Shown piece by piece: positions 10,283 through 48,373 of a stretch of 64,000 bases of DNA. The DNA is from Flavobacterium sp. 83. GTDB taxonomy: Bacteria > Bacteroidota > Bacteroidia > Flavobacteriales > Flavobacteriaceae. The notes beneath the pieces are model-generated. The model was not told where the DNA came from. It saw only the letters and a program-made list of their open reading frames with translations, and made no database searches. The stretch spans positions 3,410,001 to 3,474,000 of the forward strand of contig NZ_JQMS01000001.1 of NCBI RefSeq assembly GCF_000744835.1, written 5' to 3'. A program made the translations under genes and the position numbers. Position 1 is the first letter of the stretch. Each line of letters opens with the position of its first letter.

Positions 10283-10295
10283 TCTCTTTGTTTGC

Positions 10296-16200: not shown

Positions 16201-17300
16201 TGACCATCTCCAAAATCTATAATATATTGAGTTCCAGGAACATTTCCAGCAGGTGCAATAATTGGAAAATCAATTGTTTTAGGACTGCAACCAGAAAGGT
16301 TACCTGGGTTACCCAAAGAACCAGACGGGGTATTTCCCACAAAAATCCCATAGTTTTTACTGTAGACACAACCTTGATTTGTTGTTAATGATATATTTAA
16401 TGTATAAAAACCTTGATTATAAGTATGTGTTAGGTTTGTTGCAAAACTTGTTAGATTTAGAATCGGACTAGCATCACCCCAATTTAAAGTATAAGACGAA
16501 ACTTGACTTTGATTTAATGTTTCATTTACTATGTTAATTATACCAGTTGGACTAGTAATACATCTTGTAAAATATAATGTGTTTTGAAAAGTAACCGAAG
16601 TAGTACTTCCATTAGCACCCAAAACAGGGTCGATTTTGGAATAAACATTAACTACAATCGATTGGGAAGTTGAAATACAACCATTAGAATTAGTTACTGT
16701 TATAGTGTAATTTCCACTACTAGTAGCAGTATAATTATTTGAAGTTGCATTAGGAATTGCAATATTATTTAAATTCCACTGATAATTCAACCCCGAAACA
16801 TTTGATGTTGAAAGAACAATATTTTTGCCTTCACAGAATGTAGTAGTACCACTACTAATAATTATTGGAACTGCTGGTAGAGCATTTACCGTTACAGTTG
16901 CACTACTAGTACTTGTTTGTTCAATAGTTGGATTTGCAGTATCGTGAACACTAATTAAAGTATAAACAAAACTATCAACCGCACTAGTTGGAGCAGAAAC
17001 GCTAACACTGTTTCCTGAAGTTGTAACAATAGTTTGATTTCCTCCAGTTCCTATCTTATAAGTAAAAGTATAAGGAGCAGTCCCTCCTATTCCTGTAAAA
17101 GTTATTATTGGAGCAATTCCCCCAACACAAACACTAGCATCGTTAGTAGTTATTGTGGCAGTTGGCAATACTAAATTATTAACCTCCTCCTTTATGATTA
17201 TTTTATCTAAACCAAAATGTAGGTGATTACTTTTTGCGTTTAAATTATTAACTGAAATTATTAAGATAAAAAGAAAAATAATCTTGTAAAGGTGTTTCAT
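10296..17300 (-). CDS. Giant SprB-like surface adhesin with type-B T9SS sorting domain
   Basis: A 2334-residue secreted protein. In order: signal peptide (1-22), Ig/PKD-like domains to about residue 800, about seven Ig-like repeats of 80-100 residues (near 830-1500, each with YQWY or YKWY and a C-terminal YYYC-type strand), about seven SprB repeats (near 1600-2150, with CFGxNNGxI-like starts and GGxxPYxxxW cores), a PKD domain (near 2170-2235 with WDFGDGT) and a C-terminal gliding-motility/T9SS type-B sorting domain (about 2243-2334, starting VPNAFTPNNDNLND). Type-B domains need an adjacent SprF-like protein, which is encoded directly downstream. The role is likely surface adhesion or gliding, by analogy with SprB. 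The frame is intact despite the repeats. Confidence 0.93.
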   Translation of the reverse strand: MKHLYKIIFLFILIISVNNLNAKSNHLHFGLDKIIIKEEVNNLVLPTATITTNDASVCVGGIAPIITFTGIGGTAPYTFTYKIGTGGNQTIVTTSGNSVSVSAPTSAVDSFVYTLISVHDTANPTIEQTSTSSATVTVNALPAVPIIISSGTTTFCEGKNIVLSTSNVSGLNYQWNLNNIAIPNATSNNYTATSSGNYTITVTNSNGCISTSQSIVVNVYSKIDPVLGANGSTTSVTFQNTLYFTRCITSPTGIINIVNETLNQSQVSSYTLNWGDASPILNLTSFATNLTHTYNQGFYTLNISLTTNQGCVYSKNYGIFVGNTPSGSLGNPGNLSGCSPKTIDFPIIAPAGNVPGTQYIIDFGDGQSITYIHPNAPSSVSHTYNTSSCGNNPTGSGSIPNSFVASMTITNPCFPPAFTTVGPIIVNTPPTPSFTIFPNPGCVNTTVNILNTSNSGSIIGQNGCVSSPSLYWVISPATGWNATGLGSKGGNANDIDSWNNGVNAPSINFNTIGNYSITLFIGNSCDIKSITKTICIEPALTTPTISLMPANASNCAPLSVNASTPNVVSNCVTPIQYLWTVTHTDLDCDVLASDPTYLNSTTSASQNPLFNFTAPGNYSIQLQMTNSCGMVQSIMQTLIVKKPPVASVDPIANLCGGSSGTTIISPTANVKNCGFATSELVYNWSFPGGTPVTSSQLAPQVTYATGGSKTVSLFISTANGCANSVTSTQTFAIGTAPTLGTLSPATQTICSGSTTTVLPLTAQSGTTFSWSATTIPAGVSVNPSSGNANSIPALTISNSNNQPKMVTLTIISTLNGCPSTNTYDIIINPAPTITQPTGSTICSGGIATPLSVSITPTPVSGNTTYKWYSNTTGDTNSNTSTLVNTSTIDGNYTPPSTLGTIYYFCEVTFSSSGSCPNIKSNAVPIIVNAGVTINTQPTATQNLCVGGSIPLPLSVTATGGTGTLTYQWYSNTTNSTIGATPVGTNSSTYALPVFNAIGTFYYYAIVSANGNGCGTATSTFSEVVVIADPSITVQPLVTQTQCRNSAATSLIVTATDGIGIFNYQWYSTSNPINTGGNPVGINSSSYLPPTDVVGTFYYYCLVSQSGLGCSIKSNIATVVVVTAPQITINPQSAAVCGVGTLAPLTVAFSNGTGTATYQWYDDNGPKSGATIDTYRPTNTVTTSYYCIITFSSGGCTSITSDKAIITINPQPTISTQPLTTQNSCVGGTISSPLSVTSSGGTGTPSYQWYSTTNNSPTGGTQVGTNSATYTPPALTIVQTYNYYVVITYSGGGCNSITSNLAQIVVVNDPTVITQPLTTQTVCQNSNATVLSVAASGGLGSNYSYQWFSSISNSNIGGFLILGEINNTFLPPTSNVGTLYYYCVIKQPTGTGCNTTSVTAMVTVNLAPAFTTTLVSSDICLGQIPSQLKVVTNSDALSPIYQWYYNPNNLNSGGTLLSGETNAAFNPPASAAGTQYYYCVVTFSSITGNCSEIISSPVKVIINQPPVVFNKTAIICSGNSFTVLPVNSGLEIVPIGTTYTWTNPTINPPNSITGASAQSIPQTNISQTLINSTTSPATVIYTVTPLSGVCMGHSFTVIVTVNPAISAIVNSNNSTCFGINNGTIQTNITGGIPFSSGVPYQISWNGPNGFASSASSISNLVPGDYTLSITDAGGCPITNTYTISEPNDISIATDLEKDVTCFNEANGAIAITITGGTLGYTFAWTKNGIAFATTKDLTNLNPGIYVVTVSDTNNCSPKTATFTITEPPILAVNLVNQNNILCFGQPTGTITVNVVGGTLPYTYSWTGPNGVTSSNQNLTNVLAGTYNLLVTDNLGCIKTLSVTLTQPTAILITATTSPIICYGGNDASITLSITGGIAPYKIVWNTLASGLFQDNLSAGDYLITVTDANNCVKTLNVNIPEAPIFTINPVVKQISCFGMNDGSINLNLVGGITPLRLVWSDGSAAGLTRNNLGPGSYTVTIIDSKPCTIISTFIIQEPQKLILSANVIHAFDCDDANSGAINLLVAGGTPPFTYSWSNGALTEDLSNIPAGNYLISVIDSRACSITAQYVINRQPPIVIGVETKTDFNCETKYVKQTFVAQVSGGVPPYQLVWSSGTVSGLNNEMMNTNQNGTSILYVTDNMGCKANYTFNVDLPILGMPSFSPSSYGYTTYGTYSINDPIQFTNSATGDFVSVTWDFGDGTFSSEQNPIHTFINPKDYVVTQTVTYPFGCIYTQKITFIVGKGYLLVVPNAFTPNNDNLNDTFRPVTKALKNVRLDIYDTWGSLIYSETGAILRGWDAKIKGFNAENGNYYCKVSGETFYGTIVNENHPFVLIK

Positions 17301-19180: not shown

Positions 19181-19486
19181 TTAAACGATATCGCCATTCC
19201 ATTCTATAATTCCTCCCAGTAAGTTGTAGGTATTTTCAAAACCCAGTTCGTTCATAATTTCACAGGCTTTTGCGCTTCTCATTCCGGAACGGCAATACAC
19301 ATAATAATTTTTGCTTTTGTCCAAAGCCTGTATTTCATCTATAAAACCCTGTCCCTTGTGAATATCAATAAGTATGGCATTAGCTATAATTCCATCATTA
19401 GTTTCGTCTTCGGTTCTCACGTCTAATATTACTGCATTTTCATCAGCTTCGAATTGAGCAACCCAATCTTCTTGTGTTAAATTCAT
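19181..19486 (-). CDS. Single-domain rhodanese (sulfurtransferase)
   Basis: The 101-residue protein is one rhodanese domain with the structural VRTEDE motif near residue 24 and the active-site loop YCRSGMRSA (Cys at about 70). It would carry sulfur as a cysteine persulfide between donors and acceptors such as thiols or cyanide. It lies beside the Crp/Fnr regulator and the sulfide-oxidation cluster and probably belongs to that function. The weak -7-like AATCTTTG upstream (19509-19516, minus strand) has no Crp-type palindrome at the expected distance. Confidence 0.88.
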   Translation of the reverse strand: MNLTQEDWVAQFEADENAVILDVRTEDETNDGIIANAILIDIHKGQGFIDEIQALDKSKNYYVYCRSGMRSAKACEIMNELGFENTYNLLGGIIEWNGDIV

Positions 19487-20419: not shown

Positions 20420-20464
20420 TGTGATAAATGTTACTGTTTGTAAAAAATTTACAGACAACCTTTG
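20420..20464 (+). promoter_or_regulatory. SafE-gene promoter with Crp/Fnr-type operator
   Basis: The operator TGTGATAAATGTTACT (20420-20435) fits TGTRA-N6-TYAC. AACCTTTG (20457-20464) is a near match to the -7 element. The operator centre (20427.5) is 36.5 bp upstream of the end of TTTG, about -41.5 from the expected start of transcription. A TTTG at 20437-20440 might serve as a weak -33 element. The site is only 12 bp past the regulator's own stop codon. Confidence 0.65.
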
Positions 20465-21323: not shown

Positions 21324-22400
21324 CTAATGTTCCCCATACCCGATATCATCCATTTTACCACTAAAAACTTTATACTGAATTGTAAAGTAAGCAATTACTA
21401 ATACGATTGCAATAACAAACCAATATACTCCAACGGACAATCCATATTCACCTGCAGCAGTATTGTAAATCGTTAATGATGGATTTACCGTATTGGTTGA
21501 AGGTAAAACATTTGGAAAAATAGAAGCTGTTGTTGCTGCAAATCCTCCTACGAGAAACATACTTGAAAACACGAATCCATGACCGTCTTTTTTAAATGAT
21601 TTGACTTTAAACAATCCAAAAATACCAATAAATGCAATCAATGGAAATATCCAAAGAAATGGATTTTCTATAAAGTTATGAAACGGTTTCGGTTCGATTC
21701 GGTGCCAAACTAATAATGAAATAATGACCAATCCTAATAAGACAAAATTGAGTTTGAAAACCACCTCTTTTAATTTTGCATTCAAAGAAGAATTTGTTTT
21801 ATAAATAATCCAATTGGCACCATGAATCGTCAGCGTAACGGCACTAACCACTCCTAAAAATAAGGTAAACCAATCTATAATTCCCAATTGATCTGCTTTT
21901 GGGCTAAAAGTTGGATTCCACAACGGCAAAAAGAAAAAATGAGCCTCCTGTGTTGAAACTCCATTTGCTACCATTCCCAGATTTACACCGCGAACAATGT
22001 TTCCCAAAGCCACGCCAAAAAATATGGCTAATAATAAACTCGCAATCCCAAAAGCTTTGTCCCAAATCACTTCCCACATAGGATGATGGATTTGACCGCG
22101 TAATTCCAACCCTACAGCTCTAAAGATAAGCAACCATAAAATCATCATCAAAGGCAAATAAAATCCACTGAAAGATGAGGCATACAACGTAGGAAAGGCA
22201 AAAAATAAAACTCCGCCTGCAGCAATAAGCCATACTTCATTGGCATCCCAAAAAGGACCAATTGCACTCGTTATTGCTTTTTTATCTTTCTCAGTTTTCG
22301 CAAAAAACAAATGAATAATTCCCGCTCCAAAATCATAGCCATCCAATACAATATAAACGGCTAAAATTCCCATTAAAACTATATACCAAAAGAATTCCAT
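21324..22400 (-). CDS. cydB: Cytochrome bd ubiquinol/menaquinol oxidase subunit II
   Basis: A 358-residue, eight- to nine-span membrane protein with the CydB landmarks GYDFGAGIIHLFF (near residue 22), GPFWDANEVWLIAAGG (about 48-63) and LPLWNPTFSPKA. CydB pairs with CydA in the inner membrane. Its ATG lies 3 bp after the cydA stop, so the two are cotranscribed. Cytochrome bd gives high-affinity, sulfide-insensitive oxygen reduction, which fits the neighbouring sulfide genes. Confidence 0.95.
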   Translation of the reverse strand: MEFFWYIVLMGILAVYIVLDGYDFGAGIIHLFFAKTEKDKKAITSAIGPFWDANEVWLIAAGGVLFFAFPTLYASSFSGFYLPLMMILWLLIFRAVGLELRGQIHHPMWEVIWDKAFGIASLLLAIFFGVALGNIVRGVNLGMVANGVSTQEAHFFFLPLWNPTFSPKADQLGIIDWFTLFLGVVSAVTLTIHGANWIIYKTNSSLNAKLKEVVFKLNFVLLGLVIISLLVWHRIEPKPFHNFIENPFLWIFPLIAFIGIFGLFKVKSFKKDGHGFVFSSMFLVGGFAATTASIFPNVLPSTNTVNPSLTIYNTAAGEYGLSVGVYWFVIAIVLVIAYFTIQYKVFSGKMDDIGYGEH

Positions 22401-22403
22401 AAT

Positions 22404-23735
22404 TTATTTATTTTCTGTTTGAGGTCCTTTATTTATAATCTTACCAACCAAGAGTAAAAACAACATCCCTAATAAGAGATACAATCCTATAAATCCAAGT
22501 AAAGTAAACAATGTATTCCCGGAAGAAACCGTTGGTGAAGCACCTTTTGTAGTGCGTAATAAATTATATACTAACCAAGGTTGTCTTCCTAATTCAGCGG
22601 TGTACCATCCGGTTGTATTGGCGATGTATGGAAATGGAAGCATAAAAAGCAATGACCACAAAATCCATTTGGTTTCGAATAATTTTTTTCGAATGAGCTG
22701 AAAAACCGCTAATGCCATTAATCCGATGAAAACGGTTCCGAGCCCAACCATAATATGATACGCATAATATAACCCTGAAATATTGGTGGGATGATTTTCC
22801 TCTTTAAATTGATCTAAGCCTTTTATTTCGCTATGCCAGTTTCCATAAGTCAAAAAACTCAAAATATTAGGAACGGCAATCTTATTGTCCAGTTTTTTAT
22901 CTTTTACATCAGGCTGACCAATTAGAACAATTTCGGAACCCTTTTTTTCACTGTGAAAAATTCCTTCCATAGCCGCAAAAGTAACGGGTTGATACTTTAC
23001 GACATTTTTAGCTAATAAATCCCCGGTAGGAACAGCAACGATAAGGCTTGAAGCCAATCCGAAAATCACGCCGGTTTTCAAGAATAATTTCCCAAAAGAA
23101 ACATTCTTTTTGCTCAAAATATAAAAAGCACCAATTCCTGCCACAACAAAAGAACTGGTTACCATTGAAGCTGCCTGATTATGAAAATAAGAAGGCCACA
23201 ACCATGGATTTGTAAATAATGCTGCAAAGTTATTCAGGACAAATTTTCCATTGGCTATTATTTCGTAACCAACAGGAAATTGCATCCAGGAATGCGTTGC
23301 TATTATTAAAAAACCACTAGCCCAGGAACCTATAAAAATCAGTAATCCCGTGACAAAATGCCATTTATGCCCGAGTAATTTTTCTCCATATAAAAACAAC
23401 CCTAAAAAGGAGGATTCCAAAAAGAAAGAAAACATACCTTCCATTGCCAACGTTTGTCCAATAATACCCCCTGTTAATTCTGAAAACTTAGCCCAATTGG
23501 TACCAAATTGAAACTCCATTGGAATTCCTGTCACCACGCCCATCGCAAAATTAAGGGCAAATATTTTCATCCAAAAATGAGTTGCCTGATTGTACTGTTC
23601 GTTTTGGGTACGTAAAAACTTCCATTTAAAATAAATAATAATTAAAGAAAGTCCCATGGTCAATTGAGGAAACAAGTAGTGAAAGGTAATCGTAAATGCA
23701 AATTGCATACGGTCGTAAAAAAGCATTTCTTCCAT
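22404..23735 (-). CDS. cydA: Cytochrome bd oxidase subunit I (short Q-loop type)
   Basis: A 443-residue membrane protein. The haem ligands are in place: H19 (b595/d site), H185 (b558) and M329 (b558), as are E99 and E107 of the proton path and K248/E257 of the quinone region. GRQPWLVYNLLRT is the typical C-terminal motif. It is about 80 residues shorter than the E. coli protein because the Q-loop between helices 6 and 7 is short, the class found in many non-enteric bacteria. The gene is divergent from the CstB-like operon. Confidence 0.95.
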   Translation of the reverse strand: MEEMLFYDRMQFAFTITFHYLFPQLTMGLSLIIIYFKWKFLRTQNEQYNQATHFWMKIFALNFAMGVVTGIPMEFQFGTNWAKFSELTGGIIGQTLAMEGMFSFFLESSFLGLFLYGEKLLGHKWHFVTGLLIFIGSWASGFLIIATHSWMQFPVGYEIIANGKFVLNNFAALFTNPWLWPSYFHNQAASMVTSSFVVAGIGAFYILSKKNVSFGKLFLKTGVIFGLASSLIVAVPTGDLLAKNVVKYQPVTFAAMEGIFHSEKKGSEIVLIGQPDVKDKKLDNKIAVPNILSFLTYGNWHSEIKGLDQFKEENHPTNISGLYYAYHIMVGLGTVFIGLMALAVFQLIRKKLFETKWILWSLLFMLPFPYIANTTGWYTAELGRQPWLVYNLLRTTKGASPTVSSGNTLFTLLGFIGLYLLLGMLFLLLVGKIINKGPQTENK

Positions 23736-23889: not shown

Positions 23890-23934
23890 TGTAACTTTAG
23901 TCACCAATTTTATTTGAATACGGCAGTATCTTTG
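23890..23934 (+). promoter_or_regulatory. Promoter of the CstB-like operon with Crp/Fnr-type operator
   Basis: The operator TGTAACTTTAGTCACC (23890-23905) fits TGTRA-N6-TYAC. TATCTTTG (23927-23934) is a perfect -7 element. The centre of the operator (23897.5) is 36.5 bp before the end of TTTG. No TTG is present at -33, so activator dependence is expected. Confidence 0.7.
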
Positions 23935-23959: not shown

Positions 23960-25375
23960 ATGAAAATCGAACAAATATATACGGGTTGTTTAGCACAAGG
24001 CGCTTACTACATTACTTCAAATGGCGAAGCGGCTATAATTGACCCTCTTCGTGAAATTCAACCTTACTTAGATAGACTGGAACGCGATCAGGTACAACTG
24101 AAATACATTTTTGAAACCCATTTTCATGCTGATTTTGTGTCCGGACATGTTGATTTAAGCAGAGAAACTGGAGCCCCAATTGTTTATGGACCAAATGCAA
24201 AGTGTGAATTTGAATGTGTATCAGCCACTGACGGACAACTATTTACTATTGGAAACATCCAAATAAAAGTGCTTCATACTCCGGGACACACTATGGAAAG
24301 CACAACCTTTTTATTGATTGATGAAAATGGTAAAGATCATGCTATTTTCTCTGGAGACACCCTATTTATTGGTGATGTAGGAAGACCGGATTTAGCCCAA
24401 AAAGCGGCACACATGACTCAGGAACAACTCGCGGCTATATTATACCATTCTTTAAGAGACAAAATAATGACATTGGCGGACGATGTTATTGTATATCCGG
24501 CGCATGGTGCGGGAAGTGCTTGTGGTAAAAACATGAGTAAGGAAACGGTATCTACCATTGGTAACCAAAAAGCAACTAATTATGCTTTGAGAGCCGATAT
24601 GACTGAAGCCGAATTTGTACAAAAAGTAACCGAAGGTTTATTGCCTCCTCCAGCCTATTTTGGGATGAATGTAGCCATGAATAAAAAAGGATATGAAAGT
24701 TTCGAGAATGTATTACACTTGGGAATGCGCGCTTTATCGGTAATTGAATTTGAAGCCGCTGCCGAAGAAACCGGAGCCTTAATTTTAGACACCCGAAAAA
24801 ACACTGATTTTGCCAAAGGATTTATTCCCCAATCTATAAATATTGGAATTGATGGCGATTTTGCTCCCTGGGTTGGTGCTTTAGTTGCCGATGTCAAACA
24901 ACCAATTCTAATCGTTTCCGAAGAAGGACAAGAAGAAGAAACTGTTACGCGCTTGAGTCGTGTGGGTTTTGACAACTTAATCGGTCATCTGGATGGTGGT
25001 TATAATGCTTGGGCAAAAGCGGGAAAAGAAATTGATACCATAAACAGAATTACTGCTGAACAATTTGCCAAAGAAGTAAAAATTGGCGAGAGCAAAGTAA
25101 TCGATGTTCGTAAAGAAAGTGAATATTGTGCTGAACATGTTGAGGAATCCTACAGCAAACCCTTGGCAACAATTAATGACTGGATAAAAGACATTAACCC
25201 AAAAGAACATTTTTACTTGCATTGCGCCGGCGGTTATCGCAGTATGATTGCCGCCTCCATTTTAGAAGCGCGAGGTTTTAGAAATTTCACAGAAATAGAA
25301 GGTGGTTTTAACGCTATTGCAAAGACAAATTTGCCAAAAACAGATTTTGTTTGCCAAAGCAAAGTTTTGAAGTAA
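23960..25375 (+). CDS. CstB-like persulfide dioxygenase fused to pseudo-rhodanese and rhodanese domains
   Basis: The 471-residue protein joins an N-terminal metallo-beta-lactamase-fold persulfide dioxygenase of ETHE1 type (1-240; metal residues H54, H56, D58, H110, D133, H182) to two rhodanese domains. The first (about 255-355) has lost its catalytic cysteine (IVSEEGQEEE at 318-327 where the Cys loop belongs). The second (about 360-460) keeps it in HCAGGYRS (C422). This is the order known from Staphylococcus CstB, which oxidises persulfides and converts the product to thiosulfate. It leads an operon of seven sulfur/thiol-related genes and likely detoxifies sulfide-derived persulfides in the cytoplasm. 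Confidence 0.9.
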   Translation: MKIEQIYTGCLAQGAYYITSNGEAAIIDPLREIQPYLDRLERDQVQLKYIFETHFHADFVSGHVDLSRETGAPIVYGPNAKCEFECVSATDGQLFTIGNIQIKVLHTPGHTMESTTFLLIDENGKDHAIFSGDTLFIGDVGRPDLAQKAAHMTQEQLAAILYHSLRDKIMTLADDVIVYPAHGAGSACGKNMSKETVSTIGNQKATNYALRADMTEAEFVQKVTEGLLPPPAYFGMNVAMNKKGYESFENVLHLGMRALSVIEFEAAAEETGALILDTRKNTDFAKGFIPQSINIGIDGDFAPWVGALVADVKQPILIVSEEGQEEETVTRLSRVGFDNLIGHLDGGYNAWAKAGKEIDTINRITAEQFAKEVKIGESKVIDVRKESEYCAEHVEESYSKPLATINDWIKDINPKEHFYLHCAGGYRSMIAASILEARGFRNFTEIEGGFNAIAKTNLPKTDFVCQSKVLK

Positions 25376-28275: not shown

Positions 28276-30414
28276 TTATTTTTCTAACCATTTGTGTAAA
28301 ATTAATTCTAAATTCGATTTCACAATTGGTTTAGAGATATAATCATTCATTCCTGATTCTAAACATTTTTCTTTTTCTCCTGATAACATTCCAGCTGTTA
28401 AGGCAATTATAGGGATGTTTTTTGCTTTTTTCAATTTTCTTATTTCAGCTGTTGTTTCATATCCATTTTTAACCGGCATTTGTATGTCCATTAAAATGAG
28501 ATCTAGTTGCTCATTTTTACACAATTTTATTGCCTCAATTCCATCAGAAGTTTCAAATATTATAGAATTAGGAACTATTGATTTAAGCAGTTTTTTTATC
28601 AAAAGTAAATTAATGCTATTATCCTCAACAATTAATATTTTACTATCCTTTAAAATTTCAGTCGAAACAATCTCATTTTCAACATCATTAACGCCTATTT
28701 CATGTTTTGATTTTTCAAGTTCTATCGTAAAGAAAAAATCACTTCCAAATCCATAATTACTAATCAACTCTAATTTACTGTTCATTAAACCTAAAAGTTG
28801 ATTTGAAATCGTTAATCCAAGTCCAGTTCCACCAAACTGACGTGTTATTGAATTATCTTCCTGCACAAAGGATTGGAATATTTTTTCCTGATTTTGTTGT
28901 TTTATACCAATTCCCGTATCTTTTACTGAAAAATTTATATCAGTTTTATTTTTTCGTTTATTCGATTTATTATAAATATCTAATTTGATTTGTCCAGTTT
29001 TAGTAAATTTCAGTGCGTTGCCAATTAAATTCACTAATACCTGTTTCAACCTTACAGAATCAGCCAACACATATTGCGGTACATTTGTATCAATAGTTAA
29101 ACTTAAATCAATATTTTTTAAATTTGCCTGATATTTAAATAGATCGATAACTTGATGAGTTAGTCCAAAGAGATCAACTTCCTCAATATTTAATTCTAAT
29201 TTTCCTGATTCAATTTTCGAAAAATCTAAAATATTATTCACAATATCAGCTAATATTGTTGCTGACTCTTTTACCGTATTCATATATTCCAATTGATTCT
29301 CATCAAGGTTTGATTTCATTAACAAATCAGTGAAACCAATTATTCCATTCAATGGTGTTCTAATTTCATGACTCATATTCATTAGGAAACTCGACTTCGC
29401 TTTATTGGCTGATTCAGCTTGATCTTTTGCTTTTGTCAATTCAATTTCCAGCATTTTTAGCTCTGTGATCTCAATAAAACTGGTTACTGCTTCGATTACT
29501 TCACCTTTATTGTCAAAAACGGGAAAACCATTTAATAGGAGCCATATCGTCTTAGTATTATCTGGTCTTTTGATTCCAAGAATAAAATTTTTGAGAAAAT
29601 TTTTATTTCTTATAATTTGGTTTACCGGATAATTTTCAACTGCTATAGGTTTGTAATTTTCATCAATAAATTTCCACACCGGACTAATTGACTCTTTTCC
29701 TTTCATTTGAATGGTACTCAACCCTATCAATTCAGATGCCTTAGGATTAGACAAAATAATCGAAGTATTACTTGCATGTACAATAACTCCAACATCAATA
29801 TTATTTAACAATCCACGGTATCTTTCCTCACTATCCCTAAGTGCGGATTCCGCTAATTTTAGTTGTGTAATATCCACAACAGAAATTAGCGCAAGTTCTT
29901 TATCCTCAGTAAGAATTCCTGTGAGATAAACATTTGTAACATACGCATTTGCTAATAATAATTTAATTTCACAGCATTCTTTAATGTTGCTATTAAATAT
30001 ATTCTCTAAAAAAAGATTAAAAATAGGCTTAGTCTCATTCGAGACAAAAAATCCAAACTGACTGCCTATCAATCGAGATCTTTCCTTGCCTAACATGCGG
30101 AAACCTGTTAAGTTTAGTGCTGTAACTTTTCCTGATTTTGTTAAAGTAACATATCCTGACGGAGCAAAATCATATAAATCCGCGTATTTTTCAATAGCAA
30201 TTTCAGACTGTTCTTTAGCCAGTATCAATTCTTCATTTTGCATTTCAAGTTCAATCTGATGCACTTCAAATTCATGAATGAGCTTCAAAATATCAACTTC
30301 TGCAATTTCGTAATCTATTTTGGAGGCGTTATTTTTTTGTAATTCCTCAGCTTTTTCACGAAGAATTGTCATGAATTCTGATTTACTTTCTGTTTTTCTC
30401 ATAATTCCCAGCAT
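28276..30414 (-). CDS. Hybrid histidine kinase: PAS-PAS-HisKA-HATPase-REC
   Basis: The 712-residue protein has a coiled N-terminal region (10-85), two PAS domains (about 85-190 and 200-325), a HisKA domain with the phospho-acceptor H349 in [12 protein letters not shown], an HATPase domain (DTGIGI and GGTGLGL boxes, about 460-575) and a C-terminal receiver with D643 in LILMDIQMP. No transmembrane segment is seen, so it is cytoplasmic. Its last PAS, kinase and receiver parts are strikingly like those of the 1875-residue kinase at 36.2-41.9 kb. The next output module (Hpt or DNA-binding regulator) is not encoded nearby. It lies 68 bp after the CheB-CheR-PAS gene and is probably cotranscribed with it. 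Confidence 0.93.
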
Positions 30415-30482: not shown

Positions 30483-33400
30483 TTATTTTTCATGAATAAA
30501 ATACTGAACCACTTTTTTACGTCCTAAAGAATAAATTGTGCCTATTAAATCAATTTTTATTTTTCTCTTGTCTGAAGTTTCAATTGCTATATCATGGTAC
30601 TTAATAAATTCCTGTATATTCAATTCATTAAATTTTTCCATATTAGGAATCATATTTTTTAAAGATTCGATTTGCCAAATTTCCTTTCCAATACATTTTT
30701 CTTTGGGTAAACCCAACATATCAGAAGCATAGGAATTAATATCCGTAATTTTCCCGGTTTCATAATCCAAAAATAAAATTCCATCTTTGACATATTCGAC
30801 AAGGTGTTTAAACCTATTTTCTAAAGATATTAATTCATTTTGAACCACTATACGATCTGAAATATCGCGAATAATACATTGCATTACTTTGACATCGTTT
30901 ACTAAAGATACGTTACTTATAAACTCTACGTTTATTTTTTCTCCTTTTGCATCCTCAAGTGGTAAATTTTCATAGCGGACAAATTCCTTTTTTTGTAGTT
31001 CTAAAAATTTATCTTTATTAGCTACTATATCTTTTAAAGAACCTATTTCCCAAATCGATTTTTCAATGAATTGCTCATGTGAATACCCTAACAATTCTTC
31101 CAAATAAGGATTTACATCAATAATCATCCCCGTTTCTGAATTAAGAATCAAAATTCCATCTTTTGCAGATTCGAATAAGCGACGGTACCGATTTTCTTTT
31201 TTCAAGGACTCTTCCGCTTGTTTTGCTGCTGTAATATCAGTAAAAGTAATTACAAGTCCATCTATTCGATCGTCTAAAGTGCGATAGGGCATTATCCTTA
31301 CGTAATAATACCTTTCATCATTTGTTGCTACTTCTTTTTGAATGGAAGATAACGTTCTAATTACCCCTAAAGCATCACTCCCCATATCTGGATAAATCAA
31401 ATCACAAACTAAATCCGTGAAAGGCCTTCCTATATCACTTGCTCTTAATTTAAATATTTTAGTTACCGGATCTGTGTATCGTCGAATATTCAATTCCTTA
31501 TCTAAAAACAGCGTTGCAATTTCAGTACTGTTCAGTAGATTTTTCATGTCGTTATTAGCCTGCTCAAAATCAATCAGCTTACTTTGAAGTTCCGTATTAA
31601 CCGTTTGCAATTCTTCATTTAAGCTCTGTAACTCTTCTTTAGAAGTCGTTAATTCTTCGTTAGTTGATTGTAATTCCTCGTTAGTCGACTGCAACTCTTC
31701 ATTTGTAGATTTCAGTTCTTCCTGTGAGGTTTGCATCTCTTCACGGGTACTGTTCAAATCTTCTTTACAACGGATTAATTCAGCTTCTAATTCTTTTTGT
31801 TTACCGGAAACACCTTGCTTTTTTGGTTTCAAAGTATCTGTATCTGACAATATATTTTTAGTTACATCATTAAAAACCAACATAATCATACCTCTCAAAG
31901 CCTCTGGACTTTCAATTTGTTGGAGAGTTAAATTTACAAAATATTCAGTTTCATTTTCAACTATTTTTACATTTTCAATTTTTATTGGGTCAAAACTTTG
32001 TAAAGCTTTACGGAATGCTGACGGCAACTCATTTCTTAAACCTTCGCGAGCCATAGCGTGTATATTCCAGTTGGCTTTACCGGCAACAGGTTCTAAATAT
32101 TTTCCCGTTCTGCCTGTTATATAAATAATATCACCTTTATTATTGACTAATAGGCTAGCTGGTGAAAAACGTTGAAGCAAGATTTGATCTGCAAGGATTT
32201 GTATGTTTTCAACAACCTTAGTTTCTTTCATAGTATCAGTAGTTAATCTTTTAACTTGGGAAAAAGAACTTGGGAAATTAGTAAATTCTGGAATTACTAC
32301 TTTTGAAGTCCGTTTAAAAATTTTTAATTTGGAGTCAATTACATCAAATCCTTTAATACTGCTTGCAATCGTCTCAGCTGTTCCAAGTACCATTATACCT
32401 CCTGGTTTCAGACTGTAATTAAATAGCATTATTAATTTATTTTGTAATTGCGGCTCCATGTATATTAACATATTTCGACAAGTCAATATATCAAGTTTTG
32501 TAAAAGGTGGATCTTTTATTACATCATGAGGAGCAAATACAATCATTTCACGAATGAACGTGTTTACACGGTAACCTGATTTATCAGGGTAAAAAAACTT
32601 ATTGATTCGCTCCGGAGAAACATCCTTTTCTATATCAGATAAGAACAACCCTTTTCTAGCTTTCTCAATGGCTACTATGTCTAAGTCAGTAGCAAAAATT
32701 TGAAGTTTTATATTCTTATGTTTTCCCATTTCCCCCATCACCTCCTCAAAAAGAATAGCCAATGAATAGGCTTCTTCTCCAGTAGAACAAGCTGGAACCC
32801 ATGCCCGAATAACATATCCGTCAGGAATATCTTTTAATAAATTAGGAATAACTTCTTCTTTTAGTTTTTCCCAAACCGGAGCATCTCTAAAAAAACTGGT
32901 TACACCAATTAATAACTCTTTAAAAAGTAACTCAACCTCTTTTGGATTTTCTTGTAAAAAACGAACATAGGTTTGTATATTATCAATCTGATGTATTCCT
33001 TTTCTTCTTTCGATACGACGCATCAATGTACTTTTCTTGTACATCGAAAAGTCATGTCCGGATTGTTCTCGAAGTAAAATTATAATTTTATCAATACTAC
33101 TTTTACTTTTAACATATACTTCCCCTTCCGTATTTATTTTCGGGAAATATTTTAATAATGCAATTAATTTAGCTGGCAACTCTTCTACAGGAGCTACAAT
33201 ATCAGGCATAACAGCTTCGATTGCATTGCGCGGCATACTATCAAACTTTGCTGAAGCAGGCTCTTGCACAAGTACAAATCCGTTTTTTTCTTTAATTGCT
33301 TTTATTCCTAAACTACCATCAGATCCCATTCCAGAAAGAATGATTCCTATGCTTTTCTCCATGCGATCTAAAGCCAATGATCTAAAAAAAAGATCAACCG

Positions 33401-33791: not shown

Positions 33792-33902
33792 CACAAAATT
33801 AGAATTTCTATATTTTTACTTATGAAGTCAGATTTATATTGTCTTGACCACCTCTTTTCTGTCAGAAATATTTAAAAGGCTAATTTAACCCGTTGGGTGC
33901 AA

Positions 33903-34787
33903 TTAGATTATTTGTGTTTTAATATTGTTTATTGGTCTTTCAAAAATAAATTTATTAATGAATTGTACCAAAGTTAATGCTGTTATTTTAGCTAAAATTC
34001 TTGTTTTAAAACCTTGAAAAGATTTAGCATAATTTCGTCTAATCATAAATTGATCACACAATTGAGAGAATAATGTCTCTATTCTTTTTCTTGATTTTCT
34101 AAATATGTAGGGTTGTTTTTTATACCCAATTTGATTGATTCTCATTGGAGTTTCTAATTTTATATTTGCTGTTTCAAACAAATCTAATTGTAATGGTGAA
34201 GACAAATAACCTCTATCTCCAAGAAGCACACAATCAGACATTTGATATTTTAAATCTTTTAATAAATGTACATCGTGAACACTTGCTTTTGTAATATCTA
34301 TTGATTGAAAAACCCCAGAAACAGTACAAACTCCGTGAAGTTTGTAACCATAAAACCAAGAGTTTTGTGATGCACAAAAACCTTTATCTGGCGCAGTCTG
34401 AAAATCACCCTTACAAATTTTAATCCTATTATGACGAGCCATTTTACAAATCTCAAGTGGCATACTATCAACAACAAAATAGTTCTCAAATTCTGTGAAT
34501 TTTGAATATAAATGTTGTCTGATTTCTTCAGCAAAATGGAATAATTTTTTCCTTCTCTTATTATACTGACTTCGTTCAATTAGATTAGAAATTTGTCCAT
34601 TTTGCAACTGATTAAAAAATGAATTTTCACTGTCAATAGACATAAATTCAGATGTTAAACTTAAAGCAACTACTTCTAAATCAGACATTTTAAACTTTCT
34701 TCCAGCTCGAATTTCTGTATTAAATGCAATATTCAAAGAACTTATAACTTCTAAAACTCTAAAATAATTTTTTACTATATTTGACAT
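33903..34787 (-). CDS. IS982-family transposase, copy 1
   Basis: A 294-residue DDE transposase with catalytic-type motifs VVDSMPLEICK (first Asp, about residue 107), LLGDRGYLS (second Asp, about 193) and RKSRKRIETLFSQL (Glu, about 238). Length and motif spacing fit IS982. It appears intact and identical to copy 2. The start ATG lies next to a strong inverted repeat at 34789-34844, which may limit translation. Confidence 0.93.
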   Translation of the reverse strand: MSNIVKNYFRVLEVISSLNIAFNTEIRAGRKFKMSDLEVVALSLTSEFMSIDSENSFFNQLQNGQISNLIERSQYNKRRKKLFHFAEEIRQHLYSKFTEFENYFVVDSMPLEICKMARHNRIKICKGDFQTAPDKGFCASQNSWFYGYKLHGVCTVSGVFQSIDITKASVHDVHLLKDLKYQMSDCVLLGDRGYLSSPLQLDLFETANIKLETPMRINQIGYKKQPYIFRKSRKRIETLFSQLCDQFMIRRNYAKSFQGFKTRILAKITALTLVQFINKFIFERPINNIKTQII

Positions 34788-42007: not shown

Positions 42008-42052
42008 TGTGACATTAGTTACTGACTACGCATTTTTCACAATTTACCTTTG
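42008..42052 (+). promoter_or_regulatory. Promoter of the TolC-RND efflux operon with Crp/Fnr-type operator
   Basis: The operator TGTGACATTAGTTACT (42008-42023) fits TGTRA-N6-TYAC. TACCTTTG (42045-42052) is a perfect -7 element. The operator centre (42015.5) is 36.5 bp before the end of TTTG, identical to the two sulfur-cluster promoters at 20.4 and 23.9 kb. No TTG is present at -33. Confidence 0.7.
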
Positions 42053-42075: not shown

Positions 42076-43389
42076 ATGAAGAAAATAAATTTAATACTGT
42101 TTTTAATCACATTTTCCATTTCGTTTGCGGGATTCAGTCAGGATACCTTACCTATTTCTAAGAAAAAAATTTGGCAAAAAGCTTCTGATAAAAACCTGCA
42201 AATAAAAATGGCCAATCAGGATTTCAAATCGGCACAAGCGGATTACAGACAATCCAATTCGTTATTCTTACCAAGCATTTCAGCTTCGCACACAGCGATT
42301 TCAACTACAAATCCATTAATGGCTTTTGGTTCTAAATTGAATCAGGAAATTTTAACGCAATCAGACTTCAATCCGGCTCTATTGAACAATCCGGCAAGGA
42401 CTAAAAATTTTGCCACCAAAATTGAAGTTTTACAACCTTTAATCAATGTAGACGGATTTTACGGAAGACAAGCCGCCAAGGCAAAAATGCAAGCTTTTCA
42501 ATTGCAGACAGAGCGCACTAAAGAATATTTGGAACTGGAAGTTAATAAAGCTTTCATGGAATTGCAATTGGGTTATAAAGCGGTAAAAGTTTTGGAAAAA
42601 GCCAACACCACTGCTGCAGCCAATCTGAAATTAATCGAAAATTATTTCAAACAAGGAATTCTTCAAAAAACCGATTTGCTTTCGGTGCAGGTTCGTGTCA
42701 ATGAAATCAAAAATCAGTTGCAATATGCCAAAAGTAATGTACAAAATGCTTCGGATTATTTGGGCTTTCTTTTAAATGAAGATACGGCGAATAAAGTCTA
42801 TAAACCCATCGAGGAATTGGAAAATACGATTGTGATTGGTAGCATCAACACCACAGTTTCAGCCAATAGAAAAGACATTCAAGCTATGGATAAATCATCC
42901 GAAGCTTACGCAAAAATGCTACAATCGAGCAAAATGAATTTCCTGCCAAGATTGAATGCTTTTGGAAGTTACGAATTATATGATGATACTTTTTTGGGAA
43001 CCAATGCCAAAGGATATTTAGTTGGTGCGCAACTATCATGGTCTGTTTTTGACGGGTATAAATCGATTGGTAAAATGGAAAAAGCCAAAGCCGATTTCCA
43101 AAAATCAGAAATAGAAAACCAACAATATAAATCCAAAAGCCAATTGGATTTAAACAAAACTAATCGCCAATTAAAAGATGCAGAGAACAAAGTCAATCTT
43201 TCCAAACTGGCTTTAGAACAATCACAAGAAGCCTACAGAATCCGAAGCAATCGCTTTACTCAAGGGCTGGAAAAAACAACAGATTTGTTGCAGGCAGAAA
43301 CCCAAATGTCCCAAAAAGAACTGGAATTGCTGCAAGCCGTTTTTGAGTACAATTTTACTCAGGAATATTTACAGTTTTTAACGAAGTAA
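42076..43389 (+). CDS. TolC-family outer-membrane efflux protein
   Basis: The 437-residue protein has a signal peptide (1-22, ending GFSQ) and two copies of the outer-membrane-efflux helical repeat, with long Gln/Lys-rich helices (e.g. FKSAQADYRQSNSLFLPSI and SQKELELLQAVFEYNFTQ). It forms the outer-membrane channel of the tripartite pump encoded downstream. It is the first gene of the operon and follows the Crp-type promoter. Confidence 0.9.
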   Translation: MKKINLILFLITFSISFAGFSQDTLPISKKKIWQKASDKNLQIKMANQDFKSAQADYRQSNSLFLPSISASHTAISTTNPLMAFGSKLNQEILTQSDFNPALLNNPARTKNFATKIEVLQPLINVDGFYGRQAAKAKMQAFQLQTERTKEYLELEVNKAFMELQLGYKAVKVLEKANTTAAANLKLIENYFKQGILQKTDLLSVQVRVNEIKNQLQYAKSNVQNASDYLGFLLNEDTANKVYKPIEELENTIVIGSINTTVSANRKDIQAMDKSSEAYAKMLQSSKMNFLPRLNAFGSYELYDDTFLGTNAKGYLVGAQLSWSVFDGYKSIGKMEKAKADFQKSEIENQQYKSKSQLDLNKTNRQLKDAENKVNLSKLALEQSQEAYRIRSNRFTQGLEKTTDLLQAETQMSQKELELLQAVFEYNFTQEYLQFLTK

Positions 43390-43481: not shown

Positions 43482-44561
43482 ATGAAAAAAATAATAGCAA
43501 TCCTTACAATATCAGCAGTTTTCTTATCCTCATGCGGAGGTGACAAAAAAGAACAAATCAAGGCCGAAACAGCAATTCCAGTAAAAGTAAGCGAAATTTC
43601 ATCCGATGATAATAGCCCGTTTGTGACAGCCAGCGGGAAAATAGAAGCCGAAAACAGTGCCAACCTAAGCACAAGAATGATGGGTTATGTCACTAAACTT
43701 CATGTACAGGTAGGACAAAAAGTAGGTGCAGGACAATTATTAGTGAGCATTAATAATACTGATTTGCAAGCCAAAAAAGCGCAAGTTGACGCCAGTATTC
43801 TTCAAGCCACTGCGGGTTACAATAATGCCAAAAAAGACTACGATCGTTTTGTGAATTTATACAAACAACAAAGTGCTTCCCAAAAAGAACTGGATGATAT
43901 GACGGCGCGTTACGAAATGGCAAAAGCCGGTTTAGAAGGTGCCAGACAAATGCGAAACGAAGTAATGGCGCAGTTTTCGTATTCGAATATTACAGCTCCA
44001 TTTTCAGGAACGGTGACCAATACTTTTGTAAAAGAAGGGGATATGGCAAATCCGGGAATGCCTTTAGTAAGTGTGGAAGGTGCTTCAAGATTGCAAGTAA
44101 CAGCTATGGTATCTGAAAATGATATTGCATCGATCAAAAAAGGAATGCCGGTAAATGTTTTAGTAAAATCATCTAATACAAAACTAACCGGAAAAGTGAA
44201 CGAAGTGAGTATTTCGGCTACAAATACCGGTGGACAATATTTGGTAAAAATCAATTTAGATAAAACCGATAATTCGGTGCTTTCAGGAATGTTTGTAAAT
44301 GTGCAATTTCCCATTGAAAACAAAACAAATGCTGTTCAAACCGACCGAGTTTTAGTGCCCGAAAGTGCTTTGATAAAACAAGGACAATTAACTGGAATTT
44401 ACACGATTGGCGAAGGGAATATTGCCATTTTAAGATGGTTACGAACAGGGAAAAACTTTGGAAATCAAGTCGAAATTTTATCAGGTTTATCAGCTAACGA
44501 GCAATATATAGTTTCGGGAGACGGAAAGTTATATAACGGAGCTTTGGTTCATATCCAGTAA
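43482..44561 (+). CDS. RND efflux periplasmic adaptor (HlyD/MFP family lipoprotein)
   Basis: The 359-residue protein begins with a lipoprotein signal (VFLSSCGG, lipidated Cys18). It contains the lipoyl halves around a helical hairpin (VGQKVGAGQLLVSINNTDL near 74-92; YSNITAPFSGTVTNTFVKEGD near 166-186), a beta-barrel and a membrane-proximal domain. It joins the TolC channel to the RND pump. Anchored in the inner membrane, facing the periplasm. Confidence 0.92.
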   Translation: MKKIIAILTISAVFLSSCGGDKKEQIKAETAIPVKVSEISSDDNSPFVTASGKIEAENSANLSTRMMGYVTKLHVQVGQKVGAGQLLVSINNTDLQAKKAQVDASILQATAGYNNAKKDYDRFVNLYKQQSASQKELDDMTARYEMAKAGLEGARQMRNEVMAQFSYSNITAPFSGTVTNTFVKEGDMANPGMPLVSVEGASRLQVTAMVSENDIASIKKGMPVNVLVKSSNTKLTGKVNEVSISATNTGGQYLVKINLDKTDNSVLSGMFVNVQFPIENKTNAVQTDRVLVPESALIKQGQLTGIYTIGEGNIAILRWLRTGKNFGNQVEILSGLSANEQYIVSGDGKLYNGALVHIQ

Positions 44562-44737: not shown

Positions 44738-47700
44738 ATGCAAGAAGGTATATCAGGTAAAATAGCCCATTTTTTCATCAACTCGAAACTAACTATTTTG
44801 TTGATGGTGGCTTTGATGATTATTGGCGTGTACAGTTCGTTTTTGATTCCAAGGGAAGAAGAACCGCAGATTAATGTGCCAATGGCCGACGTGATGGTGG
44901 GTTATCCGGGAGCGAGTCCTACGGAAGTGGAAAGTCGTGTGGCAAAACCATTGGAGAAAATTATTTCGAATATCAAAGGTGTTGAGCATGTACATACGAT
45001 GGCGATGAACGGTCAAGCCATGTTGATTGTACAGTTTTATGTAGGTCAGGATGTGGAGCGTTCCTATGTGAAATTGTATGACGAATTGGCGAAACACGAA
45101 GATATGTTTCCGAAAGGCGTTTACAAGCCTATGGTAAAAACACGTTCTATTGATGATGTTCCTATGTTAGGAATCACGCTTTGGAGCGAAAAACAAGATG
45201 ATTTTCAGTTGCGCCAAATTGCCGAAGAAGTGACTTCGGAAATTGAGAAAGTAAAAGATGTAGCGATTACCAAAGAAATTGGTGGCAGCAATCGCGAATT
45301 GAAAGTGATTCTCGATAAAGATAAAATGGCCGAAAATGGTGTCGATGCTTTGGGCATTATGCAAATGATTCAGGCCAATAACGGAAGTTCACAATCGGGC
45401 AGTTTTGTACAAAATGACCAAGAATATCTAGTTACAACCGGACAGTTTTTATCAAATTCAGAAGATGTAGAAAACTTAGTGGTTGGCGTGAATAAAAACA
45501 GGCCGGTTTATTTGAAGCAAGTGGCAAAAGTACAAGACGGACCTGCCACTGCTAGAAGTTATGTATCTTTTGGATATGGCAAAGCCAATGAAAAATTTAA
45601 AACTGCCAAATCAGAATATCCTGCCGTTACAATTTCAATCGGGAAAGTAAAAGGAGCCGATGCGATGAAGATTTCCGAAAAGATTTTGGAAAAAGTGGCC
45701 CATTTAAAACAAACTATACTTACTGATGATGTTCATGTAGAAGTAACCCGAAACTATGGAGAAACCGCTTCTGACAAAGTAGGGGAATTATTGTTACACC
45801 TTGGAATTGCCATTATTGCCGTAACCGTTTTAGTAATGCTAGCCATGGGATGGCGCGGTGGATTGGTGGTATTCTTTTCGGTGCCTTTAACCTTTGCTTT
45901 GACCTTATTTGCTTATTATTTATTAGGCTATACCTTGAATAGAATTACGCTTTTTGCCCTGGTTTTTGTAGTGGGAATTGTAGTAGACGACAGTATTATC
46001 ATTGCCGAAAACATGCACCGACACTTCAAGATGAAGCGACTGCCTTTTAAACAAGCGGCGATTTATGCAATAAACGAAGTAGGAAATCCAACGATTTTAG
46101 CAACGTTTACGGTTATTGCAGCGATTTTACCAATGGCTTTCGTATCCGGAATGATGGGACCCTATATGAGTCCTATGCCAATTGGCGCTTCAATTGCGAT
46201 GATACTCTCTTTGTTTGTGGCTTTAACGGTAACACCGTATTTGGGGTATCATTTGCTTCAAGAAACCCACAAAAAAGAAAGTTCTTCTTCAAATAAAATA
46301 AAAAAGTGGGTTCCTGACAACCAAAATTTAAATAACATTTCGGAAGAAAAAGACGAGCAACAGCATAAAGAAGCAGAAGGAATGGAAACCAGTCGCATTT
46401 ATAAATTATACAACAAACTGGAACGACCATTCTTAGAAAGCAGTATGAAAAGAAGAGTCTTGCTTGCTGTTACGGTACTCTTATTATTTGGCTCTGTTCT
46501 AATGTTTTTCACTAAATCAGTAGTCGTAAAAATGCTTCCTTTTGATAACAAAAACGAATTTCAAGTCGTAATTGATATGCCAGAAGGAACGACTCTGGAA
46601 AGAACTTCGGCGGTTACTAAGGAAATTGCACAGTATTTATCAACAAAACCAGAAGTAGTAAATTACCAAAATTATATTGGCACCTCTGCTCCTATTACGT
46701 TTAACGGATTGGTGCGTCATTATGATTTGCGTGGCGGTAGCAATATGGCGGACATTCAGGTGAATTTATTGCATAAAGAAGACCGCGATTTACAAAGTCA
46801 TGAAATTGCCAAAGCAATGCGCCCTGAAATTCAGAAAATTGCCAAGAAATATGGTGCGAATGTAAAATTGATTGAAGTGCCGCCAGGACCACCGGTTTTA
46901 TCGACTTTGGTTGCTGAAATTTATGGTCCAAATTACAAAGACCAAATAAAAGTAGCTAATCAAGTAAAAACGATTCTGCAAAACACTTCGGATATTGTGG
47001 ATATCGATTGGATGGTTGAAGATAATCAAACGGAATACAAACTGGAGGTAGATAAAGAAAAAGCGATGCTGAATGGTATTGCACCACAACAAGTAGTTGG
47101 GAATTTGACGTATTTGTTGAAAGAATATCCGGTTTCGAACTTGTATGATGAAAATTCTAATGACAATGTGGGCATCGTTCTTTCGCTTGACGACAAAGAT
47201 AAAACGAGTTTGCAGGACATTCAAAGCCTAAAAATTAAAGGAAGTCAAGGCAATATGATTCCGGTGCGTGATCTAGTAAAAGTAAAAACAGATACGTTAC
47301 AAAAAACTATTTACAGAAAAGACCAGAAACGAGTTGTTTATGTAACGGCTGATATGGCTGGAGCATTAGAAAGTCCTGTATATGCTATTTTAGGAATGAA
47401 TGAAAAATTAGCTAAAATAAAACTACCAAAAGGATACAAAGTTAATGAATTGTATATGGAACAACCTACGGATGAAAGTGATTTCACCGTAAAATGGGAT
47501 GGAGAATGGCAAATTACATTAGAAGTATTTCGTGATTTAGGCGTAGCGTTCATGGTGGTTATTGTTATCATTTATATGTTGATTGTGGGCTGGTTCCAAA
47601 ACTTTAAGACACCAATGGTGATGATGCTTGCAATTCCGCTATCCTTAATTGGAATTGTATTGGGACACTGGCTGTTGAATGCTTATTTCACAGCAACCTC

Positions 47701-48049
47701 TTTTATTGGTATGATTGCTTTAGCAGGTGTAATGGTTCGAAACTCAGTTTTACTGATTGACTTTATCGAAATTCGATTGAATGACGGTGTGCCGTTGAAA
47801 CGCGCCATTATTGAAGCTGGTGCAGTGCGTACAACTCCTATTTTATTGACAACGGGAGCTGTTGTTATTGGAGCATCGATTATTTTGTTTGATCCAATTT
47901 TTCAAGGATTAGCAATATCACTGGTTTTTGGAGCAATCATTTCTACTATTCTAACCTTGATTGTTGTGCCTTTGATTTATTACATCACGGAGAGAAAAAA
48001 ATGGGAATCATCCTCAAATGAAACTGATGAAAAAAATACTAATTCCTAA
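44738..48049 (+). CDS. RND-family efflux permease (AcrB/CusA superfamily)
   Basis: The 1103-residue inner-membrane pump has the standard layout: N-terminal TM1 (12-35), a porter domain with YPGASPTEVE, TM2-6 (about 345-500) containing the proton-relay pair D417-D418 in VVDDSIIIAEN, a second porter domain and TM8-12 (about 900-1080). It exports drugs, metals or metabolites together with the adaptor and TolC-type proteins. A charged insert (about 510-550) follows TM6. Substrate cannot be read from sequence; the Crp-type promoter shared with sulfur genes and the terminal DUF2892-like gene hint at a role in sulfide stress. Confidence 0.93.
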   Translation: MQEGISGKIAHFFINSKLTILLMVALMIIGVYSSFLIPREEEPQINVPMADVMVGYPGASPTEVESRVAKPLEKIISNIKGVEHVHTMAMNGQAMLIVQFYVGQDVERSYVKLYDELAKHEDMFPKGVYKPMVKTRSIDDVPMLGITLWSEKQDDFQLRQIAEEVTSEIEKVKDVAITKEIGGSNRELKVILDKDKMAENGVDALGIMQMIQANNGSSQSGSFVQNDQEYLVTTGQFLSNSEDVENLVVGVNKNRPVYLKQVAKVQDGPATARSYVSFGYGKANEKFKTAKSEYPAVTISIGKVKGADAMKISEKILEKVAHLKQTILTDDVHVEVTRNYGETASDKVGELLLHLGIAIIAVTVLVMLAMGWRGGLVVFFSVPLTFALTLFAYYLLGYTLNRITLFALVFVVGIVVDDSIIIAENMHRHFKMKRLPFKQAAIYAINEVGNPTILATFTVIAAILPMAFVSGMMGPYMSPMPIGASIAMILSLFVALTVTPYLGYHLLQETHKKESSSSNKIKKWVPDNQNLNNISEEKDEQQHKEAEGMETSRIYKLYNKLERPFLESSMKRRVLLAVTVLLLFGSVLMFFTKSVVVKMLPFDNKNEFQVVIDMPEGTTLERTSAVTKEIAQYLSTKPEVVNYQNYIGTSAPITFNGLVRHYDLRGGSNMADIQVNLLHKEDRDLQSHEIAKAMRPEIQKIAKKYGANVKLIEVPPGPPVLSTLVAEIYGPNYKDQIKVANQVKTILQNTSDIVDIDWMVEDNQTEYKLEVDKEKAMLNGIAPQQVVGNLTYLLKEYPVSNLYDENSNDNVGIVLSLDDKDKTSLQDIQSLKIKGSQGNMIPVRDLVKVKTDTLQKTIYRKDQKRVVYVTADMAGALESPVYAILGMNEKLAKIKLPKGYKVNELYMEQPTDESDFTVKWDGEWQITLEVFRDLGVAFMVVIVIIYMLIVGWFQNFKTPMVMMLAIPLSLIGIVLGHWLLNAYFTATSFIGMIALAGVMVRNSVLLIDFIEIRLNDGVPLKRAIIEAGAVRTTPILLTTGAVVIGASIILFDPIFQGLAISLVFGAIISTILTLIVVPLIYYITERKKWESSSNETDEKNTNS

Positions 48050-48067: not shown

Positions 48068-48373
48068 ATGAAACTACTCATCATAACCGCTATTTCTGCA
48101 TTTGAAAAAGACATCAAAAAAATGTTGAAACAAGCAGAAGTAAAAACTTTTAGTTACAAAGAAGTAAAAGGATACAAAGACATTTCGGAAGAAGCTTTTG
48201 AAAGTAACTGGTTTGCCAGCGAAATAAACGAAACCGAATCCATTCTCTTTTATGCTTTTGTAAAAAAGGAAAATGTAGATCCGTTATTCGATTTAGTTTC
48301 TTCCTTTAATAGTAAACAAGAAACAGTATCGCATATTCATATAGCCGTTTTAAACATCGAAAAAAACAATTAA
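48068..48373 (+). CDS. Small PII-like protein in the efflux operon
   Basis: The 101-residue protein starts with MKLLIITAISAFEKDIKKML and ends VSHIHIAVLNIEK, a beta-alpha-beta pattern like PII/CutA-type ferredoxin-like folds. Small PII-like proteins (for example DUF3240) often follow RND pump genes and may sense the exported ligand. It lies 18 bp after the pump gene. The fold assignment is by resemblance only. Confidence 0.6.
   Translation: MKLLIITAISAFEKDIKKMLKQAEVKTFSYKEVKGYKDISEEAFESNWFASEINETESILFYAFVKKENVDPLFDLVSSFNSKQETVSHIHIAVLNIEKNN

Follow-up and report, generated by a model that had tools for sequence, protein, structure and literature searches.

A Crp/Fnr-family regulator and a fixed-spacing operator at predicted sulfide and persulfide detoxification genes of Flavobacterium

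The 64-kb window analysed here, the whole stretch of DNA from Flavobacterium sp. 83, encodes a protein that we read as a class II Crp/Fnr activator of sulfide and persulfide detoxification genes, with reactive sulfur as its most likely signal; we put the probability of this reading at about 0.8. The operator, its spacing, the set of target genes and the link between regulator and sites are supported by sequence comparison across genomes, from which we infer physical binding, activation, the signal, the chemistry of its sensing and the role of a pump.

Three operators at one spacing from the -7 element

A first-pass annotation of the window had noted three Crp-type sites, each with its centre 36.5 bp upstream of the last TTTG base of a -7 element. 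All three were read where it had placed them (Table 1), and the distance is true of each. The core that it gave, TGTRA-N6-TYAC, fits the three sites, but a better form is TGTRAC-N4-GTYAC, with operator 1 carrying T at position 6. On both strands of the window, TGTRAY-N4-RTYAC occurs at these three sites only, in every case at the exact spacing. The looser TGTRA-N6-TYAC has seven window matches against 2.77 expected, and because seven or more were reached in 5 of 100 shuffles, the signal sits in the spacing.

The spacing also held up in a scan of the whole genome (one contig, 3,790,620 bp), which gave seven exact-spacing matches, three of them in the window, against two for the reversed-pattern control. 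From this control, 0.034 exact-spacing matches would be expected in the window, and the probability of three or more is approximately 6e-6. A fourth exact-spacing site (C1:40977-41021) lies upstream of two small tandem rhodanese genes. The remaining three matches (L002-L004) fall inside open frames of 297, 421 and 267 codons and were dropped as chance. When up to three mismatches were allowed there were 53 matches against 69 in the control, and no further targets are claimed in this genome on that basis; six identical one-mismatch matches were dropped as copies of a repeated element, perhaps rRNA operons as judged by eye.

At E. coli CRP promoters, -41.5 is the class II activator position. The same geometry had been proposed for the three sites here, and the 36.5 bp to the end of TTTG and the position of TAnnTTTG in a relative agree on it: in the F. 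psychrophilum promoters described in PMC9723704, TAnnTTTG spans -12 to -5, so the operator centre would lie at about -41.5. The accompanying remark, that none of the three has a TTG at -33 at the usual spacing apart from a weak TTTG at the first, needs a correction: T16 and G17, roughly at the expected end of a -33 TTG, are present in two of them. Each of these two bases occurs in 51% of 136 non-redundant sites, and the operator arms hold most of the information outside the -7 box.

Table 1. Positions in the window of the regulator, the operators with their -7 elements, and the genes discussed
Feature	Position	Strand	Remarks
Divergent single-domain rhodanese beside the regulator	19181..19486	-	Pfam Rhodanese
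Crp/Fnr-family regulator, 208 aa	19782..20408	+	Pfam cNMP_binding PF00027 and HTH_Crp_2 PF13545, above cut-off
Operator 1, TGTGATAAATGTTACT	20420..20435	+	11 bp downstream of the regulator stop codon; same placement in relatives
-7 element of operator 1, AACCTTTG	20457..20464	+	TTTG ends at 20464
TauE/SafE-family transporter, 261 aa	20482..21267	+	Pfam TauE on the longer frame; likely start 20482
Operator 2, TGTAACTTTAGTCACC	23890..23905	+	Also at orthologous promoters
-7 element of operator 2, TATCTTTG	23927..23934	+	TTTG ends at 23934
Metallo-beta-lactamase/rhodanese fusion, persulfide dioxygenase type	23960..25375	+	Pfam Lactamase_B and Rhodanese
Operator 3, TGTGACATTAGTTACT	42008..42023	+	
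-7 element of operator 3, TACCTTTG	42045..42052	+	TTTG ends at 42052
Outer-membrane efflux protein (OEP), first gene of the RND operon	42076..43389	+	Pfam OEP
HlyD/CusB-type periplasmic adaptor, RND operon	43482..44561	+	
RND permease	44738..48049	+	
101-aa protein, weakly PG0541-family / P-II-like	48068..48373	+	Below curated cut-offs; downstream of the RND permease

The operator is conserved in the genus and beyond

Conservation of the sites in relatives was borne out. Across 120 genomes, that of Flavobacterium sp. 83 included, TGTRAC-N4-GTYAC-N26-TTTG has 115 matches, spread over 65 genomes, against 4 for the control; the genomes are related and such counts are not independent. TAnnTTTG is present at 95 of the 115 sites, though the search behind nearly all of them required TTTG only. 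With 31 gap values allowed and TAnnTTTG required, the gap between operator and -7 element is 22 bp in 98 of the 148 pairs found in 81 genomes of the genus, one base shorter in 12 and one base longer in 11. The reversed-pattern control gave 12 matches over all 31 gaps.

Individual promoters follow the same pattern. The best orthologues of the persulfide dioxygenase have an exact site at gap 22 in 27 of 30 promoters, and the remaining three, read by eye, have AGTAA for TGTAA at the same gap. Among the promoters of 27 OEP orthologues in the genus, 21 carry an exact site, another 5 differ from it by one base with the gap unchanged, and 1 has no site; for aldehyde dehydrogenase, exact sites were found in 0 of 30 promoters. 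We fetched 20 of the 50 off-spacing pairs. Five of these stand upstream of DUF983 genes, at 44 bp in four cases and at 46 bp in the fifth, so the DUF983 promoter may tolerate a one-base shift in spacing. One more lies upstream of a persulfide dioxygenase at 46 bp, and others, judged by eye, consist of repeats or of what seems to be coding sequence.

A scan with the regulator alignment extended the comparison to at least 80 named Bacteroidota-type loci, comprising 28 from Flavobacterium and Flavobacteriaceae (L216-L243) and 52 with lower scores (L244-L295). Nearly all of the latter are from other genera, L246 being labelled Flavobacterium, and those listed include Chitinophagaceae, Pedobacter, Niastella, Dyadobacter, Pontibacter and Telluribacter. 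Among the matches listed for the 52 lower-scoring loci, the gap is 22 in 49 of 83 operator/TTTG pairs and 23 in 6, and their reversed sequences hold 3 pairs in all. A site lies within 200 bp downstream of the regulator gene in 37 of the 80 loci and anywhere in the stretch in 56, against 0 of 80 for the reversed control, again among the matches listed; in the other 24 loci no site was found within the stretch examined. Judged from the first 45 residues, the genes downstream of the sites in the listed loci are mostly TauE, persulfide dioxygenase, rhodanese and sulphur-transport genes.

Genes downstream of the sites

In the window, the fusion protein downstream of operator 2, which has 3tp9, 3r2u and ETHE1 as PDB relatives, is one that we take to be CstB-like. 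The TauE/SafE-family transporter probably starts at the ATG at 20482, the start of its open reading frame at 20428 falling inside operator 1. The window scan with TGTRAY-N4-RTYAC found no operator for the divergent rhodanese gene beside the regulator.

The 115 distinct strict sites in the fetched loci yielded 112 first genes, three sites having no open frame by the rule used. A rhodanese, OEP (RND efflux), TauE or DUF983 domain is encoded by 90 of the 112. Among the best 25 of 41 Pfam families, the counts are 47 for rhodanese, 31 for metallo-beta-lactamase, 20 for OEP, 12 for TauE and 11 for DUF983, followed by sulphur transport (3) and by sulfate permease, DsrE, YgaP-like and AhpC (2 each). 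The figure for TauE is too low, since T stands at position 6 in many TauE sites; of 22 such sites before TauE genes, 12 are strict. The first genes also include an SQR-type flavoprotein. OEP and DUF983 genes, which have no proven sulfur role, make up 31 of the 112, and a few first genes are of neither kind (multicopper oxidase, peroxiredoxin, porin-like). At the 20 loci with a site upstream of an OEP gene, an adaptor is present in 13 and a permease in 11; the other seven stretches end soon after the OEP gene. DUF983 genes recur as putative regulon members (L072, L085, L088, L093, L103 and others).

Other features of the window lie near these genes. The cydAB genes (21324-23735) are on the opposite strand, between two of the putatively regulated genes, and have no site of the motif TGTRAY-N4-RTYAC in the window; one relative (G070) has a site upstream of cydA. 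The persulfide-dioxygenase cluster is separated from the RND operon by a stretch that contains two DDE transposase genes (33903-34787 and 35205-36089), identical at 885 of 885 bases. Near one another are genes for a 1,875-residue hybrid histidine kinase with many PAS domains (36248-41875), a second hybrid kinase (28276-30414) and a CheB-CheR-PAS protein (30483-33794). At 9257-17300, a 2,334-residue SprB-repeat protein with a type IX secretion signal is encoded next to a PorP/SprF gene.

The Crp/Fnr protein as the likely reader of the sites

That the Crp/Fnr protein encoded beside operator 1 reads the sites had been suggested in the first-pass annotation, and its adjacency to sites, its co-occurrence with them and the way in which the operator letters vary with its residue 182 argue for it. 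Of the 81 genomes of the genus, 71 have a regulator match (E <= 1e-25). An exact-spacing TAnnTTTG site occurs in 58 of these 71 and is missing from 13, and it occurs in none of the 10 genomes lacking a regulator match. Four of the ten are less than 90% complete; seven of the ten have a persulfide-dioxygenase homologue.

Position 182 is E in some regulators and V in others, and the operator differs with it. G4 or C13 is found in 54 of 66 sites from E182 genomes against 5 of 42 from V182 genomes, or in 28 of 35 against 5 of 29 distinct 16-mers; left out of this comparison are three sites from genomes in which the helix was not read and the four sites of G063. Two of the five exceptional V182 sites come from G031, a genome with an additional, partial E-group protein in which the helix was not read. 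G063 itself carries a regulator of each type, and directly downstream of each is a site of the matching kind, while its two other sites, away from the regulators, have mixed letters. Fisher values of 6e-7 for co-occurrence and 3e-13 for co-variation are overstated, the genomes being related, and we regard the pair within one genome and the distant loci as better evidence. The co-variation agrees with the rule reported by Rodionov et al. 2005 (PMC1274295) that R180 and E181 of Crp/Fnr proteins correlate with letters of the DNA site.

The recognition helix had been described as R181-E182-xxx-R186, and this is correct: it reads NTSREVISRLL, and the three residues align with CRP R180, E181 and R185. 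The only cysteines of the protein are at 76, 82, 161 and 163. C76 and C82 lie in the cyclic-nucleotide cassette at the places of CRP I70 and F76. With three more distant Crp/Fnr rows of the alignment left out, C76 is conserved in 58 of 58 family members and C82 in 54 of 58. The four members without C82 (L057, L102, L150 and L151) still sit beside sites; alignment A1, in which both cysteines are invariant, was chosen by hand without them. The regulator is probably thiol-based.

CRP contacts cAMP through E72, R82, S83, T127 and S128. In each of 20 aligned regulators, I, L, M or F stands in place of E72 and both T127 and S128 differ; R82 is kept in 2 of them and S83 in 20. We rejected an identity as CRP on this loss of most cAMP-contacting residues and on a score of 45.8 bits with the NCBIfam CRP model (cut-off 266). 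FNR (4Fe-4S) is marked by an N-terminal cysteine cluster. The regulator has none, and with the NCBIfam Fnr model it scores 20.8 bits against a cut-off of 228. An identity as HcpR2 was set aside too, residue 182 being E or V and not P in the helices read, with no hcp family among the best 25 of 41 families of the first genes. Pfam matches at E 0.001 included none of the ArsR, CsoR or sigma-54 activator folds of SqrR/BigR, CstR and FisR.

The best PDB sequence match is 3dv8, a distant Crp/Fnr protein of the Firmicute Eubacterium rectale that also has a C-x5-C pair, and a wider thiol-bearing branch of Crp/Fnr proteins may exist. Given that 3dv8 shares it, the pair may be older than this regulon. 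Together with the members that lack C82 and still sit beside sites, 3dv8 suggests that C76 and C82 could be conserved for a reason other than sensing.

Alternative explanations

The sites might be chance matches of the motif or conserved coding sequence: long open frames enclose three of the seven exact-spacing matches in the genome, and by eye some off-spacing matches belong to repeats or coding sequence. The controls contradict this (115 matches against 4; reversed loci 0 of 80 among the matches listed), as does the spacer, which is about 48% identical in 23 orthologous promoters that keep the operator and -7 element, where the search pattern itself had fixed the arms and TTTG; we give such an origin next to no chance. 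We likewise hold it very improbable that the reader of the sites is a different Crp/Fnr paralogue of the genome. Candidates exist, as a search with HTH_Crp_2 gave seven matches, of which five, the window regulator included, are above cut-off. The two paralogues read among the four others above cut-off have different recognition helices (TATESCIRLL and TSRQTATQLL), however, and it is this regulator that the site adjoins in distant loci, whose residue 182 co-varies with the operator, and without which none of the ten genus genomes has sites.

A further possibility is that the regulator does bind the sites but, in the manner of HcpR or PgRsp of Porphyromonas, responds by way of haem or by other means to nitric oxide, redox state or low oxygen, with the sulfur genes lying downstream of that stress. 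Only the signal is at issue here, so that this overlaps with our reading; it is in our judgement unlikely. HcpR2, a Crp/Fnr regulator that occurs in Bacteroides, shares the motif GTAACnnnnGTTAC as described in PMC1274295; most of the genomes named there have an hcp-only regulon, with P at residue 181, whereas the corresponding residue here is E or V and the first genes are mostly sulfide and persulfide genes. PgRsp of Porphyromonas gingivalis is likewise a Bacteroidota Crp/Fnr redox regulator, modelled on 3dv8. It is reported to bind haem (PMC6955866), which would favour a signal of this kind; its reported action in oxidative stress and virulence differs from the role proposed here. The cydAB genes between the window targets, and the one relative with a cydA site, would suit a signal of this kind; against it, the window cydAB has no site of the motif and the cysteine pair is nearly invariant. 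Among persulfide, nitric oxide and low oxygen, the predicted target genes favour persulfide or sulfide. The protein might also be a repressor at the sites, relieved by sulfur, which would dispute the sign only and strikes us as distinctly improbable. CstR and SqrR are repressors. As sensors of reactive sulfur in the account of PMC9774590 they offer precedents, yet the fixed -41.5 position and poor -33 fit activation, and one exact spacing in many lineages would not be expected of a repressor.

Discussion

In the mechanism that we favour, the protein would be an activator of the Crp/Fnr family, presumably dimeric like its relatives there, that binds TGTRAC-N4-GTYAC centred at approximately -41.5, overlapping the place of the -33 element, and brings the Bacteroidota RNA polymerase to promoters whose TAnnTTTG is good and whose -33 is poor. 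The targets, namely the CstB-like persulfide dioxygenase-rhodanese, the rhodaneses, the TauE/SafE transporter and the RND efflux operon, would serve to oxidise reactive sulfur, to transfer it and to export it. As the signal we consider a persulfide or polysulfide most likely, with the C76/C82 pair, predicted to sit where CRP holds the cAMP phosphate, as its point of action. More broadly, the Crp/Fnr fold would here carry a thiol-based sensor of persulfide, its cassette turned into a C-x5-C switch; this sensor would be a widespread activator of sulfide detoxification in Bacteroidota, and the RND pump, as part of that response, would export a reactive sulfur product. This wider picture is an even bet.

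The regulator resembles E. coli CRP in its Crp fold, its R-E-x3-R helix, its TGTGA-like half-sites and the centre at -41.5, but differs from it in the cAMP contacts (E72, T127 and S128 changed in 20 of 20, R82 in 18 of 20), in having two cassette cysteines and in its mainly sulfur targets. CstR and SqrR control sulfide- and persulfide-oxidising genes. So does FisR, as described in PMC9774590. All three belong to other protein families and have other operators, in contrast to the Crp/Fnr protein with class II geometry found here. A Crp of Acinetobacter is reported to be persulfidated, with an effect given as unknown (PMC7315123). Among the open-licence PMC papers listed for the question, none showed a Crp/Fnr regulator of persulfide or sulfide genes in Bacteroidota.

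Gut, soil and sediment all harbour Bacteroidota in abundance, and persulfide dioxygenases occur in many of them. With a named regulator, a fixed-spacing operator and a list of targets, the response becomes testable in one mutant. The comparison also links an RND pump and DUF983 genes with reactive sulfur, and it shows clearly how specificity can change with residue 182 in a Crp-type helix. Taken together, these results point to a regulatory switch, so far uncharacterised, with which Flavobacterium and its relatives would cope with reactive sulfur.
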